NCBI GenBank assembly: GCA_963971285.1
Contig: OZ020250.1
Location: forward strand, 16,228,499 to 16,292,498
From: Astropecten irregularis
Lineage: Eukaryota; Echinodermata; Asteroidea; Paxillosida; Astropectinidae
Direction of reading: 5' to 3'
Length of the DNA stretch: 64,000 bases
Shown here: positions 13,279 to 59,660 of the stretch, one piece after another
Layout of the letters: every line of letters begins with the position of its first letter
How positions within the stretch are numbered: the stretch's first letter is position 1
Made by a program: the position numbers and the translations under genes
Notes under the pieces: generated by a model
The model's input: the letters and a program-made list of their open reading frames with translations, nothing else
What the model was told of the DNA's origin: nothing
Database searches by the model: none

Positions 13279-15495
13279 ATTTATTATTATTTCTTATTTT
13301 ACCCTGGGTGATCCATTCAGTTACAAGGAAAAAGTTACTGATCTCCCATGGATCCCAGCTTACAAAACTACAAAATGTGATAAAAAATACCAATACAAAA
13401 ATACAGGTAAGAAAAAGCATACATTAAAAATTACACAAACCACAGAACTAAAACAACAACAATGAAGACACAATTAATTGAGCTGTTTGAGTTGGTTGAC
13501 AAAGGTATTTAGGCTTACAGTTTGACATGTTTTTGTGTTAATTGGTAAAATATTCCATGCTTGAGCACCCCTGAAACTAAATGTTCTTCTTCCACTTTCA
13601 GTTCTGGGATGTGGGAGGACGACATTACCAACAGTGCTATTCCTTGTTTGATATTTATGTGATTCACTGACTGGAGTAAAAACATTAAGATACATAGGAG
13701 CTTTACCAGTTAGACATTTAAAAACCATGGTATTTATATGGATATCTCGTCTTGCCTGCAGAGTCTTCCATCCTAATCTATTCCTGATAACAGAAGCTGA
13801 TGTTCTAGTTTGAGCCTTAAGAATTGTCCGTCCAGCTCTATTCAAAACTACATCAAGCCGTTGCGTTAGTGATTTTGAAGCATTACTCCAAACAAGATCA
13901 CAATAATCAAATTGGGGAAAGATAAGGCTTTTGACGAGAAAGTTAAGGGTAGACACAGGTAAAATATTTTTTAGTCTATTCAGGACACCTATTCTCTTAG
14001 AAACAGCTTTTTCAATATGCTCAATATGCTCAGTCCATTTCATTTTACTGTCAATATGAACACCAAGATATTTATAAGTGGTGATTTGATCCAGGCAGTT
14101 ACCGTCAACAAAAATATCAATATTAGGATTTAAGCACCTAGCAAGCTTCTGGGCAGAACCAATTAACATGCTTTTTGACTTGGAAATGTTTAGTTGAAGT
14201 CTGTTGTCAGTGAGCCAAGTAGAAATTTTCTGCAAGTCATGATTTAAAAAGAGATTTATCTGCTGAACATCTTTACTAGGATAAAACAATGCAGTATCGT
14301 CAGCATAAAGTGCAATTTTAGTATGATCAATCACAGTCGTAATATCATTGATAAAAATGGTAAATAATAAAGGGCCCAGTATAGTTCCCTGAGGAACTCC
14401 AAAGTTGATGTAGGTTTTGCTAGATAAAGAATTTCCTATTTTAGTCATTTGGGTCCTCCCATTAAGATAAGACCGGAACCAGTCGAGCTCCAGACCTCTA
14501 ACACCCAAGGTATGTAATTTCCGAATCAAAATATTGTGATTAACTGTGTCAAATGCTTTGCGAAGATCCAAAAATGCTACTCCAACAAATTGACCAATAT
14601 CCAGCTGTTTGAGCAAATAATCAGAAACATCAAGTAAAGCCGTATGTGTGGAGTGAAGAGGTCTGAAACCCGACTGCTCCCGGGCAAGGCAATCATTCTC
14701 TGTTAAGAAATGGAATAATTGTTGGTAGATGATACGCTCAAAAATTTTCATAACAATTGAAATAACAGAAATGGGCCTATATTGATTAGGATCATGAACA
14801 TCTCCCCCTTTATGAATTGGGGTTACCTTGGCCAATTTCCAATCGTTAGGAACAATACCAGTCATTAAGCTTAGTTGAAAAATTACAGCTAGCGGTTTGG
14901 CAAGAACGCTGGCACCAGATTTTAAGAAACGACCATTAATCCCATCCATGCCAAAAGCTTTTCCAACTGGCAATTTCTTCAGGAGCTTCAATACCTCAAT
15001 GTGAGTGACTGGACAAAATTTAAAAATATGTTTATCATTACCACTCAAACTGTTACCATCCAGGACCAATCCAGTTTCAGACATTGTATCAAACTGAGCA
15101 TCATGATTCACTCCAACACTAGCAAAGTGATCGTTAAAGTTATTAGCAGCCTCATGATTCCTTTCATCATCTCCAAAATGGGTATAAGCTGATTTCTTAC
15201 TTGGAAGCATACTTTTAAGAAAGGTCCAAATTTGTTTAGTATTTCCAACATTATTGTGCAAAACTTTTGTAACATACTGCCTTTTAAGTTTAACGCCCAG
15301 AGTATTCAGTTTATTTCGCAGGACCTTGGCTGCTCGATAATACCCATCATTTCTTACAACATTAGCTAGGTGTTTGGCCCTCATAGATTTACGCCGAAGT
15401 TCTAAGTATTCATCATTAATCCATTCCGCTTTCTTGGTACAAACTCTCAAGCTTCTGACTGGGCTATGGATATCACAAACATTCATTAACATATG
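13279..15495 (-). mobile_element. 5'-truncated LINE with a TAA-rich tail
   Basis: The element spans the reverse transcriptase ORF plus about 190 bp of 3' untranslated sequence. On the minus strand its 3' end reads GGTAAAATAAGAAATAATAA then continues as AATAATAA-type repeats, ending near 13279. That is a typical simple-repeat tail of APE-type LINEs. Upstream of about 15495 the frame closes and no endonuclease similarity is seen, so 5' truncation is near 15490-15520. I did not find a convincing target-site duplication. Confidence 0.8.
13474..15492 (-). CDS. Non-LTR retrotransposon ORF2 fragment: reverse transcriptase, endonuclease missing
   Basis: An uninterrupted 672-codon minus-strand ORF. 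Residues 1-130 look like the linker after an APE-type endonuclease, which is itself absent. The reverse transcriptase domain runs from about 195 to 450. It shows NDWK..KVTPIHKGG (216-230), the fingers motif QYRPISV (237-243), catalytic Asp309 in FLDLRKAFD, GVPQGT (365-370), and YADD (396-399) with catalytic Asp398 and Asp399, followed by LNISKSKSM and the thumb motif YKYLGV (473-478). The C-terminal part (about 585-672) has the FKCLTGKAP and RGAQAWNILP motifs of Jockey/CR1/I-type elements. All polymerase residues expected for activity are present, which suggests a recent insertion. Without the endonuclease it is not a complete element. It sits in intron 1, in the same orientation as the host gene. 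I cannot settle the clade. Confidence 0.93.
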   Translation of the reverse strand: MLMNVCDIHSPVRSLRVCTKKAEWINDEYLELRRKSMRAKHLANVVRNDGYYRAAKVLRNKLNTLGVKLKRQYVTKVLHNNVGNTKQIWTFLKSMLPSKKSAYTHFGDDERNHEAANNFNDHFASVGVNHDAQFDTMSETGLVLDGNSLSGNDKHIFKFCPVTHIEVLKLLKKLPVGKAFGMDGINGRFLKSGASVLAKPLAVIFQLSLMTGIVPNDWKLAKVTPIHKGGDVHDPNQYRPISVISIVMKIFERIIYQQLFHFLTENDCLAREQSGFRPLHSTHTALLDVSDYLLKQLDIGQFVGVAFLDLRKAFDTVNHNILIRKLHTLGVRGLELDWFRSYLNGRTQMTKIGNSLSSKTYINFGVPQGTILGPLLFTIFINDITTVIDHTKIALYADDTALFYPSKDVQQINLFLNHDLQKISTWLTDNRLQLNISKSKSMLIGSAQKLARCLNPNIDIFVDGNCLDQITTYKYLGVHIDSKMKWTEHIEHIEKAVSKRIGVLNRLKNILPVSTLNFLVKSLIFPQFDYCDLVWSNASKSLTQRLDVVLNRAGRTILKAQTRTSASVIRNRLGWKTLQARRDIHINTMVFKCLTGKAPMYLNVFTPVSESHKYQTRNSTVGNVVLPHPRTESGRRTFSFRGAQAWNILPINTKTCQTVSLNTFVNQLKQLN

Positions 15496-15529
15496 AATTC
15501 GCTGAGTGATCTCTGCATGTCAAACTTGA

Positions 15530-28274: not shown

Positions 28275-29565
28275 ATATGCCATGTATGTATGCAAGATTG
28301 CAACAACTTCTGTGCATGCTTTTGATGCAAGCATGCACAGAGTTTTCAGACAGTTTTTGCGTGGGTACATCGCTTCAATCACTCCATAGCACACACAGCA
28401 ATCAATTCTAATGTTACAAACCAATTTCATGGCTCCGTAGTTGTGACACAAAAAATTGTTATCCCAACCTAATCTAAAAAATCCTTGTCTCACAATGTAT
28501 ACAACTAACACTATGTACTGGTGCACAAATCCTTAACAAAATAAGCTTACAACTTGTAAGCAGAAAATTGATTGAAATGTTGTACTGTCAATTATGGAAT
28601 TCTTGCTGAGGCCCCTTGCAAAAATAGCGGATTGTTGATTCATTGAGCAAAACCAACGGATCTGGAACAGTTGGAGGAAATATTGAAAAGGAGTAGTTAC
28701 ATGTATTATAAGGAGTAGTGATTGATGGTACAAAGGTTTCAACCCTATCAAACTCCAGTAATTTCTCCCCATGTTTATCTATCTGTCCTTAATTTCAATT
28801 CACTGGATGTGATAATATTCTCTGAAGGCCAACTGGATTAACCAATTAACTGGTAGCCGAGCCCAGAGTGTCTAACATGCCAGTGGAGTTTGTGTGTGAT
28901 GTACCGACAGGATAGTTAGAAAGTGCGGGAAAATTCAGCACAGAGTTGAAAGTCCATCTGGAAAGTTGCCATCTAGTCGAAGCAAGCTGACCGATCCGAC
29001 TGGCTCTGACCGATCCAACTGGCTCGGTCATTGGTCGGCCAGGCTGGAGGAATCTCAACCCTTAACCCCTGCAAGCATTTTTTTTGTAATGCTGGGGGAG
29101 AAAGAATTAATAAAATGTGGTTAATACCCCGGTCTAGTCTTCCAACGCCTGTCTGAAAGTGACAGACGAAGGACCTTGCAATTAGCAGGAAAGCTACATT
29201 GGCACAAGTGGACAGCTTAGTCCGATATATACCTCAGGCGTGCTGCTCAAGTTTTAAATGAAACACTGTGCATATTAACTTGCCACATGACACATGTTCC
29301 AGTGTGGACAAACTAATACGTGCATCAAAAGCAGACGAACATTCACTTTCTTAGCTGAAAGAACTTTGGTGTTCATGAGCCCTTCTCATGTTTTCTTCCA
29401 TTTTCTGAGATTTCTGAGATTGAAAAGGTATCACAAGCTTGTCTCCACTTCTTCTTTTCTTCATAGAGGCTTTATGAAGGCATTGGTTGTGTTCTTTATG
29501 CACTGAGTGTACATTTGCCAAATGGTGGGAGACAAATGAAGGCCAAATCAACAACAGAACCTGAC

Positions 29566-29905
29566 TAAAGGCCTTTTCAGTCACACTATCTAAAATCTCG
29601 GGGTTGGAACTGGATCGAACCCCAAGATTTTTTCAACCCTTTTCCAATTGAACATTTTCATCCCCAAGCCAACCCGGGTAGGACAGTGTAGCCGGATCCG
29701 AATCAACCCTAGTAGGGAGCAGGGTTGAAAATCTCAACCCGGTTCCAAACTGCATTTTGCGCCATGTGACGCGTGATCTGCGTTGCATGAACCGGTTCAC
29801 CATAAACATAGTGTGAATGTTGCATATCTTTGATCCGGTTCAAAAACATGCAGGGCTGAACCGGGGTGGATCCGGGTTAGCATCAACAGGGATCGAAAAG
29901 GAGAT
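29566..29905. mobile_element. Second copy of the CCTTTTCACAC-ended element, without the nested insertion
   Basis: It begins AAGGCCTTTTCAGTCACACT and runs through blocks shared with 42.0-43.1 kb, such as TTGAAAATCTCAACCCGGTT and ACATAGTGTGAATGTTGCAT. The terminal 20 bp on the right are missing. Position 29739-29742 is the unoccupied CCGG that corresponds to the nested insertion site in the other copy. Confidence 0.65.
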
Positions 29906-30486
29906 CCAATGTGTACTGCACAGATATCCAGAAAAAAAATTGTTTCACTATCAAACAAAACCGAAGAAATTTCAAGGCAATTGTACTTTAAATATTATTA
30001 CACAGGATGGTCTTGCCAAAAGAGACAGAAAGCGTAGAGAGCGAGGGGAAAAAATTCCTGTATGAAAAAGAAAAAGAATGTATAAAAAGAAACCTTCACA
30101 TAGTGCAGTGCATTTTACGTGAACCCTAAAAAAATTTAGCAATTGACAACTCTTCCTCAATACAAACGCCCACCTAAATGGAAACAAAAAAAATGAAAAG
30201 AAAGAAAATATCAAATAAATGGATAAAAAAAAAATCTGAGAGGGATAAAAAGGCTGAAGGCCGCAAAGGGGTACGTCTCAATTGAAGAATTGAAGCCTAG
30301 TACAATTGCTTTATGATTTTTCGGGGTAGGAATTCATCATAATTCTGGCAATTTTTGACAGCTTGCGAGTTTGTGATGGAAACTGGGAGCACTGTGACCC
30401 ACAGTGCCTCCTCTTTGTGGTACATTTGGCATTTCACACATTTTTCCCTCCATTTTTTTTTTAAATAAAGGTTACAACATCATTGG

Positions 30487-42029: not shown

Positions 42030-43131
42030 AGGCCTTTTCACACTCCTTTTCCATCCGTGTTGAAACCAACCCGGTTCCGCCCCGGTTCAGCCCGGCAAGT
42101 TTTTGAACCGGATCAAAGAGATGCAACATTCACACTATGTTTATGGTGAATCAGTTCATACAACACAGATCATGGCGCAAAATGCAGTTTGGAACCGGTG
42201 TCATGCCAAAAGGTGTCCGTTGCCAAATAGTGTCCGCGGAGCATGCGCAGTGAACACTGGACACTTTTTGGCATGTATATACATGCCAAATAGTGTCCGC
42301 TGCCAAATAGTGTCCGAGCACAGCCCATGCGTACGCACGTATAATGGTGCATTTGAAGAAGGCCACGCGTACGTACAAGTACTATTCTCGATCCTTTGTA
42401 AGTGTTTGTCAAGGTACCGTATATTGCAGGGAGCATATAGAGAGGTGTAATGAATAATACATATTTTGCAGGAAGTTAAAACAGTACAATACGCATGCTA
42501 TGAACAAATAAAAACATACAAGGCACTTTCATTTACGATAAAAAAATAACACGACATTGCGTGACTTTGATCACCGTTTTTTTTCCTTGTACCTACCGCG
42601 ATCTAACCCTTTCCTTTCTATTAAAAATAACGTCATTGGAACACTATTCTTAAACTATCTGCCAAGTTTGATGTCAGCCCGATCATTCTTAACTGCCCTT
42701 AGTAGATTTCACATGATGATTTTCGTCGATATAAATTATAAGCCACAACCTTGTCTTTTTTTTTTTTACAAACTTTGAATGAAAAACTCTGACACGTCTT
42801 GCTAGGTGAAGAGTCAGCCTGACTCCATAGGACGCACGTTAAGTGCGGACACTATTTAGCAAGCTTGCATAATTATATGACGTCAACGGTGCATAGCCAA
42901 TCAAATCCCAGTATGCTAATTAGCGGACACTATTTGGCAACGGACACCTTTTGGCATGACACCGGGTTGAGATTTTCAACCCTGTTCCCTACCAGCGTTG
43001 ATTTCGATCCGGCTAGACTGTCCTTCCCGGGTTGACTGGGGGTTGAAAATGTTCAAGTGTGAAAAGGGTTGAACAAATCTTGGGGTTCGATCTGGTTCCA
43101 ACTCCGAGATTTAGGATAGTGTGAAAAGCCC
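42030..43131. mobile_element. Inverted-repeat element with CCTTTTCACAC ends, split by the Ginger1-like insertion
   Basis: The outer element consists of 42030-42198 and 42962-43131. Its ends read GGCCTTTTCACACT and, in reverse complement, GGGCTTTTCACACTATCC. It is rich in AACCCGG/CCGGTTC words, which supply CCGG targets. Joined across the nested insertion it matches the repeat at 29566-29905 in reverse orientation. Its own target duplication is unclear. No ORF of interest is present. Confidence 0.65.
42199..42961. mobile_element. Non-autonomous Ginger1-type DNA transposon, 763 bp, with CCGG target duplications
   Basis: Perfect 39-bp terminal inverted repeats lie at 42199-42237 and 42923-42961, beginning TGTCATGCCAAAAGG. 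CCGG directly flanks both ends (42195-42198 and 42962-42965). Removing the element and one CCGG restores the surrounding repeat, whose other copy keeps a single CCGG at 29739-29742. TGT termini, TIRs of about 40 bp or more and CCGG-specific 4-bp duplications are the published hallmarks of Ginger1 elements, which encode a Gypsy-integrase-like transposase. This copy has no integrase ORF, so it would depend on a full element elsewhere. The inner sequence contains further TGCCAAATAGTGTCCG units and a 20-bp palindrome. Confidence 0.8.
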
Positions 43132-43498
43132 TTATGACTCTTGCACATTGTGTGGGGGCTGGATGTCACTGATAGTCGGTTAATGCAGAGAGGATACTCC
43201 TTTCATGGTTGATGGCTTCATGATACACAGTCAGTCATTAGGTTGGATGCACTCATTTGAACATCAATGGCTGTCATCCACAGGAATCACCGACACATTA
43301 ATTGTACAAAAAACCTTTGATGTGTACATCCGTCGATCAAAGGTTTTGGAAACTTGCCCCATGTCAACAACTTATCCATTTAATGATGTTATGTAAATGG
43401 ACGTACGTGTACAGTGATGGAAACTGGAAACGGATTTGACAAAAACTGGGTGTGAGCAAATGACCTAAAAACTTCCCATTGTACATAGTGATAACTGA

Positions 43499-56520: not shown

Positions 56521-59150
56521 AGATGGCTTGAAAGAGTAGACAAAAATCACATTCAGAACATTCAGATCCTCCACCGGAAACCAATAGAATAAAAATTGTG
56601 GAATCATCCGCCAGATTTGAAGAATCCTCGTTTGACGCTTAAAAGTCCACGAACGAAGAGACTGATTCAGAACAGCATGGAAAGTTCCTCTTCTTTGGGT
56701 CCGATCTGCGATCTGTGTTGGGTCACAGACACTCTGATACTGATGAAACTCCGGGTAGCAGTGACAGGTTTTCTACTCATGGAGATTGGTTTATGCATGT
56801 GTGTATATTGGAGAGGGGGGACTGGTTAATAAGCGTGCTACTGGATGCTGGCTACTGCTATGTACTGGTTACGGCCCAGCAGATTGCTGGCACGCTGTCA
56901 GAGATTGGCTGGTTTGATAGCATGCAGTGATACTACTGCCTGTGATCACATGTACTGTACTCACTAGCACTGTAGGAACAGATTCAGTACTGTACATGTA
57001 CATGTACAGGCACTGGCTATGCATGACTGAACGGACATCCACATTACTTGAGAAGGGGGGGGGGTTCAGATAACAGTCACTGCAAAGTTATGGACTGTTC
57101 TAAAGTTACAGAGGGTAGGGAAGGTTGGATTTTTTTTTTTTTCGGAGGGGATCAAGAGAGTGTCAAACAGTTATTGGTGTTGGCTCAGTCCTGTTTCTTT
57201 CCAAACTGGATGCTAGGAGTAGGACTACAATGGAGCTATAAAACAGTAACTCTGCAGTGGATTGGGGAATCAATATTTCCAGTTCTAACAGTTAATAATG
57301 TCAAAAAATCTCATGTATCAACCCAAAAATTAAGGATAATAGACAAAATCTCAATCAAGTGATGATTCAATGATTTTTTTCTCTCATTATTCAGTTCATT
57401 ATTTGTATGGATAGACATTTATACCTTGTAATGTAAAAACTGGTGGTTCAGAAATGGTATTTTGAAATGGTATCAGAAATGCTGTCATCATTGAGAAAAC
57501 TGTGGGCCCCTAAATGTATACATGTCCATTACAGTAATTGAAACACACAATTTGTATCCTTTTGGAGACAATGTATTTTGTACTAAATGAACATTGACTC
57601 TCCGAAGAGCAGAATTGAAATCACTCCCATTTGAACCAAAATCTCCTTTCCAGGGTTGAAATTTCTAATGAACATCCAATATGTAAAATAATTCTCTTTA
57701 TGAATTCCTCTTTTTATATTAAATTCTAAATATCAATTTTTTGAAAAATTTTTGGAGACCTGTAGGCCTACACCTTTAGAATTTCCCTGTGGAGTGTAGA
57801 TGGTGGAGACATATTCAACGTACAAGATAATGTGCCCAATATGTACATGTACGTGTACACACTTATGTACAACAAACAAACCCAGAAATCATTACTTGTT
57901 GTTTTGTAAGACCAATGTTAAGACCAATCCTGATGAAATTGGCAAAAGTTGAAAACGGGGGGATTGCCCTCTAAATCACCCTGAACAAAATTTCCAATGA
58001 TGTTATTATATCTTAAATCTCTCACAGCTTTAAGGATGATAACAAATTTACAATCCCCTTTTTAAAATTCTTTCAAAGTTTGCTTCAAATTCCTAATGGG
58101 ATCAAATGTTTTACGCGCATCCATGATCACCGGAAGTGTTTCAATTTAGTTCTGGTCATCCGCAAATTTGTCGAACAAAAATTCAATCAAAAGAAAGGGA
58201 TTTGTTCAGCGGTAAAAGTCAATTTGTTCTGTTGACAAGGCCAAGTTTATTCCCAGCGGGGGAGATTTTGTGTAAGCGACGTAAATACACAAAGGACTTT
58301 AAGTGTCCAACTTTGGTCAAAAGGTACCGACACAGAACAAGTGCCAACAAAAATATCGCTGACTCGTCTCCAACCAACATACTGAAAGAGACAAAAAAGA
58401 AACACAGTAGGGGGTTGAGAGTGGATTTAACGTCAATTATGTCTAATTTGAACCAAAACAGGCTATTTTTTTCTTTACAAACATGACGCTGCTGTAATAT
58501 TGAGCCATCAAAGGGGGGCAATTGGACAACAACGTACACAGCTGAAAGCATCCAACGAACGTTACCCCCTGACAAAAAAAACAATGGACATTTATGGGAA
58601 TCAGCGAAGCATGTTTATGGCGACACAGAGTGAGACGAATGAATTCACCAACATGGAGACTTCCACATGCCAAGACAGACTCAATTGTTTTCTGCCCCTA
58701 CCCGGGGGCCAATGATTCCAACTGAACTCAAAGTCAAATTCATAAATTTTCCCCCTTTTTTTCAAATGGTTTGTTGTGACGATTTAACGACAAACACGTC
58801 AGGTTTTTTTAAAAATTCTCACTGGCTACAGCGCAAACATAGATCACATGTATCATCTTCTCTTAAACACAAACCACACCCAGATGAAACAGAATCTTCT
58901 TTGCTGACAAAACAAGATAGAGGTTTTTCTTAAAATCTCAGAAGATATTCATTTGTGTGCAGTTCTTGTCTAATTTACTACTAGCCTGATCTCCAATTGG
59001 AAAGTGCTAATTGACACAAAATTTCATTTTATAATATGCATCCAATGCTGAAAGATCAATCTTTCAGCGAAGAGACTTCCAGATTTTTAGAATTGGGGAT
59101 TACTGAAGAGTGCATGGTAAACAAATCCACACTTTTTCTTTGGAACAATT
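56521..59150. other. 5' flank without recognised genes
   Basis: Contains ACATGTAC-rich words around 56990-57010 and 57840-57860, a short G tract at 57054-57063, and a perfect small hairpin GCTGAAAGAT-CA-ATCTTTCAGC at 59047-59068, just ahead of the minisatellite. Confidence 0.4.
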
Positions 59151-59660
59151 TCCCTTGGGTCAAGACTCATCTCCCTTGGGTCAAGACTCGTGCCCCTTGG
59201 GTCATGACTCATACCCCTTGGGTCAAGACTCTTGCCACTTGGATCAAGACTTATGCCCTCTGGGTCAAGACTCATACCCCTTGGGTCCAGACTCATGCCC
59301 TTTGGGTCAAGACTCAAGGCCCTTGGGTCAAGACTCATGCACCTTGGGTCAAGACTCATGCACCTCAGGTAAAGACTCATGCCTCTTGGGTCAAGACTCA
59401 CTGCCCCTTGGGTCAAGACTCGTGCCCTTGGGTCAAGGCTCATGCCCCTTGGGTCAAGACTAAGATGCCCCTTGGGTCAAGACTCATGCCCCTCAGGTCA
59501 AGACTCATGCCCCTCGGGTCAAGACTCATGCCCCTTGGGTCAAGACGCAAGTCCCTTTGTAGGTCAAGTCTCAAGACCCTTCAGTCAAGTCTCACATTTC
59601 TTCAGGTCTAAGACTCAAGTCCTATGGATCATGTCTCAAGTCCCCTTGAGTAAAGATTCA
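59151..59660. repeat. 21-bp minisatellite (CTTGGGTCAAGACTCATGCCC)n, about 20 units
   Basis: Near-perfect 21-bp units from 59151 to about 59560 decay into degenerate units to about 59660. Because 21 is a multiple of three and the unit has no stop in several frames, long ORFs appear on both strands (PWVKTHA-, PLGQDSC- and MSLDPRG-type heptads). These are not taken as genes. Confidence 0.8.

Follow-up and report, generated by a model that had tools for sequence, protein, structure and literature searches.

The window, that is, the whole stretch of 64,000 nucleotides analysed here, carries at 42030..43132 a repeat whose own imperfect inverted ends (15 bp) mark it as an element, and nested in this host repeat lies a complete non-autonomous Ginger1-type element of 763 bp (42199..42961, CCGG duplication not counted), delimited by its terminal inverted repeats (TIRs) and its genomic copies. 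The region 42195-42965 has the layout CCGG, TGTCATGCC...GGCATGACA, CCGG. The left 39-bp TIR begins TGTCATGCCAAAAGG (42199..42237, plus strand) and is matched by the right TIR on the minus strand (42923..42961); the two inverted arms (42195-42237 and 42923-42965) extend over 43 nt, i.e., the 39-bp TIR plus the palindromic CCGG, and are 100% complementary, in agreement with the initial annotation, which had described perfect 39-bp TIRs starting with TGT and CCGG on both sides. A 16-bp motif, TGCCAAAWRGTGTCCG, occurs in eight copies (at most two mismatches) near both element ends, while 0.10 copies are expected in the whole window. Five copies form a left cluster (42204..42316; 42204, 42221, 42284, and 42301 on the plus strand, 42258 on the minus strand) and three a right cluster (42846..42956; 42846, 42924, and 42941, all on the minus strand), and both clusters are putative transposase-binding sites. 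The left subterminal region additionally contains a palindrome of 20 + 20 bp (42259..42298, 95% complementary). The motif copies and the palindrome were absent from the initial annotation.

A paralogue of the host repeat without the element is located at 29581..29903 on the minus strand (87% identity across the junction). Alignment of the joined flanks of the element with the reverse complement of 29400-30100 gave a clean empty site with 86-87% identity through the junction, in which the unoccupied target reads CCGG once (29739..29742). Because the empty paralogue has a single CCGG, the target duplications at 42195..42198 (left) and 42962..42965 (right) are exactly 4 bp long and the insert is 763 bp, so the proposal that this empty site fixes the duplication to the base was borne out. 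A distant copy of the host repeat also adjoins a Ginger1-type copy elsewhere (L088, 63-245), and CCGG-rich repeats may be frequent targets of Ginger1-type copies.

We searched the same genome (475.7 Mb, 168 contigs) with the 771-bp sequence including both duplications; 40 of the 381 candidates were scored, and full-length or nearly full-length copies with 79-94% identity were recovered. The 37-bp terminus (at most three mismatches) matched 89 + 81 = 170 genomic places, both ends counted, and a reversed control matched 0 + 0. Individual reading drew on the approximately 100 places listed per search, a part of the genomic set. Of the 47 copies read at both ends, 42 are short (600-1100 bp), and their median divergence from the majority sequence is 6.0%; the window copy lies nearest to that sequence (3.7%) and L071 is an outlier (40.9%). 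The window element is one of dozens of short copies and ordinary in itself. Both flanks were read for 47 distinct copies and were CCGG/CCGG (n = 34), CCGG/CCTG (n = 5), CAGG/CCGG (n = 3), CCGT/CCGT (n = 2), TAGG/CCTG (n = 1), GCGG/CCGG (n = 1), and CCCC/CCGG (n = 1). The genome search with the TIR that the initial annotation had proposed as a check thus returned mostly CCGG (34/47) or CCGT (2/47) flanks, while the deviating flanks that it had named as contrary evidence were encountered in part: 36 of the 47 copies conform and 11 are mismatched, eight combining a CCGG side with a CAGG side (read inward) and three being mismatched in other ways. Among the mismatched copies, L054 has empty paralogues that read CCGG, and the odd flanks therefore add a feature to the family and do not refute its assignment to Ginger1. 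L018, L033, and L036 share a flank of the TTTA-CCGG-CACAATGAAG type; the element in L036 is opposite in orientation to that in L033, and the same kind of site was therefore struck more than once. L007 and L019 have the odd right flanks GGGGACAG and GGGGGAACAG, respectively, in place of CCGG.

One of the copies read, L040 on contig C1, is 8565 bp long, has CCGG on both sides, and looks like a candidate helper encoding a Ginger1 transposase, as judged from its predicted gene. Its 39-bp TIRs are 100% identical to those of the window element. The minus strand of L040 contains 15 exons with GT-AG borders at all 14 introns and an uninterrupted frame of 808 amino acids. The first 440 amino acids matched the Pfam families Integrase_H2C2 (9.1e-19) and rve (1.6e-14) and, among PDB sequences, Ty3 Gag-Pol (9.4e-28) and the PFV integrase (1.7e-22), and the C-terminal exon matched Ulp1 (Peptidase_C48, 5.1e-5) and PHD (1.5e-5). 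The DD35E core spacing was counted by eye, the GPY motif was read by eye as NWLGPYR, and YP and FY, which may represent the YPYY motif before the zinc finger, were seen at plausible places (also by eye); a Pfam search with only the piece holding NWLGPYR gave no match. The H2C2/DDE integrase and the C-terminal Ulp1 domain are present in L040 and absent from the window element. L040 is the longer element that had been predicted, with the same TIRs, an integrase, a GPY/F motif, and an OTU or Ulp1 domain, and it encodes a Gypsy-type integrase instead of the unrelated transposase that had been named as contrary evidence. L040 was the one candidate helper among the copies read: a scan of their loci for a second Ginger1 gene found none outside L040, and the sole other match was a 32% match in L034 to an integrase-like stretch beside a Ginger1-type copy. 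Further helper copies may exist in the genome. Within the transposase gene of L040 (4474-3881, minus strand), a 69-bp exon and its intron occur four times in tandem in near-identical form, an exon amplification.

The window element corresponds to L040 in three parts. Its left subterminal region (42199..42353) is 86% homologous to L040, its right region (42764..42961) is 83% homologous to the L040 stretch on the promoter or 5' leader side, which stops approximately 10 bp before the first ATG, and its non-coding middle (42354..42763) has a clear match of 34 bp only. The 16-bp motifs have like order and orientation in both elements. Given the shared ends, the motifs, and the promoter-side homology, the short element is most readily explained as a relative of an L040-type 8565-bp element that has undergone internal deletion or replacement, although most of its middle 410 bp, without a clear match to L040, counts against this reading. 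L040 is not the direct parent of the window element, because the end regions (83-86% identical) differ by approximately 15%.

With high confidence we classify the window element as a non-autonomous Ginger1 transposon and assign it the corresponding general mode of movement, as the initial annotation had suggested; the TIRs, the CCGG targets, and the L040 integrase with GPY and Ulp1 all support this reading. It belongs to a non-autonomous Ginger1 family that we regard as new, although Repbase may already list it, and that has a candidate helper. According to Bao, Kapitonov and Jurka 2010 (PMC2836005), the defining parts of Ginger1 include a Gypsy-type integrase with H2C2, DDE, and GPY and a Ulp1 domain, the termini are TGTNR, and target duplications are CCGG (75%) or CCGT/ACGG (24%). 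The family described here shares the TGTNR ends (TGTCA at both ends of the window element) and the 4-bp CCGG or CCGT/ACGG duplication (CCGG at the window copy, 34 + 2 of the 47 copies), and its 39-bp TIR lies at the lower edge of the Ginger1 range of approximately 40-270 bp. L040 shares the Gypsy-type H2C2/DDE/GPY integrase with C-terminal Ulp1, and its PHD domain has a counterpart in Ginger1-9_HM; non-autonomous copies likewise accompany Ginger1-1_BF (PMC2836005). L040 differs in having 14 introns, compared with 0-4 in Table 1 of that paper, and a length of 8565 bp, compared with approximately 2.6-7 kb, and the recurrent one-sided CAGG flanks are not among the duplication classes given there. 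Ginger2/Tdd elements resemble the family in their TGTNR ends and 4-bp duplication but differ in their RTATAY targets and in having no GPY/F motif (PMC2836005); the AT-rich RTATAY target was not encountered in the flanks of the 47 copies. Membership in a different superfamily with 4-bp duplications, such as Ginger2, or an origin as a pair of solo LTRs is extremely improbable: TGT...ACA ends are common to LTRs, Ginger1, and Ginger2 (PMC2836005), yet the termini here are inverted and not direct, the targets are CCGG and not RTATAY, and the full-length copy L040 encodes GPY and Ulp1.

This family shows identical ends, a 4-bp duplication, CCGG as the empty target, and, in a copy whose ends match those of the window element, an open transposase gene. 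We infer a cut-and-paste mode for the short element, which would be mobilised in trans by an L040-type protein. In such a process, the transposase of an autonomous copy would bind the motifs clustered at the ends, cleave each end 3' of its terminal CA, and insert the two ends into a CCGG target at positions staggered by 4 bp; filling of the gaps would then produce the CCGG duplication.

The one-sided CAGG flank, hereafter the scar, was analysed at the level of single termini. The end count started from 159 candidate ends, of which 138 were kept and 135 remained after removal of duplicates; internal ATACATGCC motifs and ends without TGTCA-like first bases were excluded. Read inward, the flanks of the 135 unique termini were CCGG (n = 105), CAGG (n = 13), ACGG (n = 4), CCGT, CTGG, and CCCC (n = 2 each), and seven others found once each. 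The CAGG ends comprised five left, five right, and three unassigned ends, and CAGG at one end with CCGG at the other occurred in 8 of the 47 copies, approximately one insertion in six. If a CAGG target underwent a plain 4-bp duplication, one end would read CAGG and the opposite end, also read inward, would read CCTG; CCTG read inward was present at 1 of the 135 termini. Of the 18 ends that depart from CCGG by one base, 13 were CAGG, against an expectation of 4.7%; with ACGG and CCGT counted in, the proportion is 13 of 24.

A tree of 48 copies, from which copies longer than 1300 bp (including L042) or shorter than 600 bp and L071 were excluded, requires 11 changes for the 11 copies with mismatched flanks; the starred branches force at least eight, and the shuffled mean was 10.0. 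The scar is therefore not inherited in clades. Origin of the scars by ordinary point mutation after insertion is highly improbable and was rejected. Such decay would suit the modest overall amount of flank change and the age of some copies, but with the observed C-to-A rate scaled to terminal branches (L088 additionally excluded) 0.32 CAGG ends were expected and 10 of 94 were observed. Within the elements, moreover, C to A accounts for 100 changes and C to T for 321, yet the flanks have CAGG 10 times and CTGG twice. The scarred copy L057 has a terminal branch of zero and is 99.6% identical (0.4% difference) to the CCGG/CCGG copy L030; scarred L031 differs from L032 by 0.6%.

The target sequence at scarred insertions was read from empty paralogues. 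For L054 (CCGG-element-CCTG), a junction search with four free positions gave CCGG in 68 of 72 empty paralogues and TCGG, CAGG, CTGG, and CCGA in one each; CCTG occurred in none. On this evidence, the target of L054 was CCGG and its scar was made at insertion. L006 (CAGG-element-CCGG) sits in tRNA-like sequence with 115 paralogous places; among the 100 listed, CCGG was found in 94, TCGG in four, CCAG and GCGG in one each, and CAGG in none, so that its target was probably CCGG too, with the scar made at insertion. The L006 flank reads GAC-GA-CAGG, compared with GAC-TT in 98 of the 100 listed paralogues (115 in total) and GA in none of those listed, and each of the three bases by which it differs (-6, -5, and -3) brings it closer to GACAGG, although two of these positions lie beyond the 4-bp gap. 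The L006 paralogues resemble tRNA genes (by eye) and none has fewer than two mismatches, L006 being a diverged tRNA-like copy, and the GA before CAGG may be specific to its own tRNA-like family. At C12:1553018-1588772 of G000, tRNA-like sequence recurs every ~2.2 kb, as a tRNA gene array or tRNA-bearing repeats. L005 has a single empty paralogue, which reads CCGG with poor alignment near the junction (17/24), and the paralogues of L042 are ambiguous (CCGG, CCTG, CCTA, CCTT, and TCAA). Junction-spanning paralogues for L006, L013, L027, L031, and L057 were sought in the loci of the copies read and none was found; the flank of L027 is coding-like. Among unscarred copies, the paralogues of the window copy, L002, L056, and L075 read CCGG, the best paralogue of L043 reads CCAT (23/24 local bases), and those of L052 are not CCGG; given L043 and L052, paralogues are imperfect stand-ins for the true empty site. 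Together, the excess over decay, the scatter over the tree, and the CCGG empty sites of L054 argue that the scar was made at insertion.

How it was made is open to several explanations. GA precedes CAGG at 6 of the 13 scarred ends and at 7 of the 105 CCGG ends (Fisher 6e-4, post hoc and uncorrected), and GACA is the element's own 3' terminus, such that GACAGG-TGTC equals this end joined via GG to the TGTC start. We tentatively suggest, from these bases, that the scar derives from a 5' flap, (GA)CAGG, composed of the element's GACA end plus GG and built into the gap at one side. The intermediate, GACA-GG-TGTC, would be either an end hairpin with a 2-nt GG loop or an end-to-end (circle) junction with a 2-bp spacer, and its off-register opening would leave (GA)CAGG as palindromic nucleotides, which would then be incorporated at one side of the CCGG target. 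An error of host gap repair, e.g., pairing of A with a damaged G in the second position of the CCGG gap while it is single-stranded, needs neither hairpin nor junction nor any other special intermediate, which weighs against the flap; it agrees with the uniformity of the change, one base at one position in 13 of 18 singly changed ends, and with a CCGG target at L054. Such an error is possible but somewhat doubtful, as approximately one end in ten would be a very high rate of misincorporation, and it leaves GA at -6 and -5 and the L006 differences outside the gap unexplained.

If the 5' flap were instead the old flank of the donor copy, CAGG would pass from parent to daughter. L013 and L027 would fit, since both have a CAGG left end, lie together in a small clade, and are 98% identical, yet the 11 changes for 11 mismatched copies leave no overall clustering and the nearest relatives of L031, L054, and L057 are CCGG/CCGG; we consider inheritance unlikely. 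A further explanation places the insertions at CAGG/CCTG targets, where a donor-carried 2-nt GG overhang would overwrite the two bases next to the element. Bases -1 and -2 are GG at 126 of the 135 ends, L059, scarred at both ends, would have inserted into CATG, CCTG occurs in one L042 paralogue, and XMRV provides a precedent of a one-sided duplication error (PMC2857682). The paralogues nonetheless make this explanation quite unlikely, with CCTG in none of the 72 for L054 (68 CCGG) and CAGG in none of the 100 of 115 listed for L006 (94 CCGG), and it predicts no GA before CAGG. This explanation, the first model considered, was rejected on those L054 empty sites.

The piggyBac transposase is unrelated to the Ginger1 type, although piggyBac resembles the family in having a palindromic 4-bp target of strict specificity. 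The piggyBac hairpin end intermediate described in PMC7351741 resembles the mode hypothesised above for Ginger1, in mode only, and differs in its TTAA target and 4-nt hairpin loop. Retroviral integration of XMRV shares the 4-bp stagger and the CA 3' ends with the family; a one-sided duplication mismatch in 1 of 15 XMRV clones was ascribed to misincorporation or a 5' dinucleotide flap (PMC2857682), a single clone, whereas the scar here is recurrent and of one base type. Unlike in retroviral integration, an RNA stage is neither known nor expected for this family. No report of one-sided CAGG flanks was found in the available portions of PMC2836005, PMC12863088, and PMC10045372.

The enzymatic mechanism of Ginger1 excision is stated as unknown by Bao et al. 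(PMC2836005). Ginger1 stands between cut-and-paste transposons and LTR integrases, and whether its intermediate is a hairpin, a circle, or linear bears on the kinship of integrases and transposases. If the flap proposal is true, the scar is a genomic record of the Ginger1 excision mechanism that sets Ginger1 apart from simple retrovirus-like integration. With a candidate helper, many short derivatives, repeated empty sites, and a datable scar, this family opens Ginger1 excision to tests by comparative genomics and in vitro.

Some Ginger1-type copies are structurally unusual. L039 (C1:7222878-7231123) and L041 (C15:17059937-17067706) are split by an insert with a Penelope-like reverse transcriptase (by eye; RVT_1 5.8e-9, ORF of 718 amino acids in L039), the two inserts being 99.2% identical over 2525 bp; in L041 the insert is flanked by two identical 420-bp stretches of the short element. 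That both represent one cargo element with a Penelope-like retroelement was rejected, as the inserts lie at different points of the short element, and independent insertions are likelier. L042 (C27:2031721-2037073) is a 4353-bp copy expanded by a minisatellite with units of approximately 51 bp. Elsewhere in the window, an ORF of 681 amino acids on the minus strand (13474-15519) has the look of a non-LTR reverse transcriptase (by eye), and an ORF at 59015-59611 consists of imperfect short repeats of the PWVKTHA type, a coding-like minisatellite.
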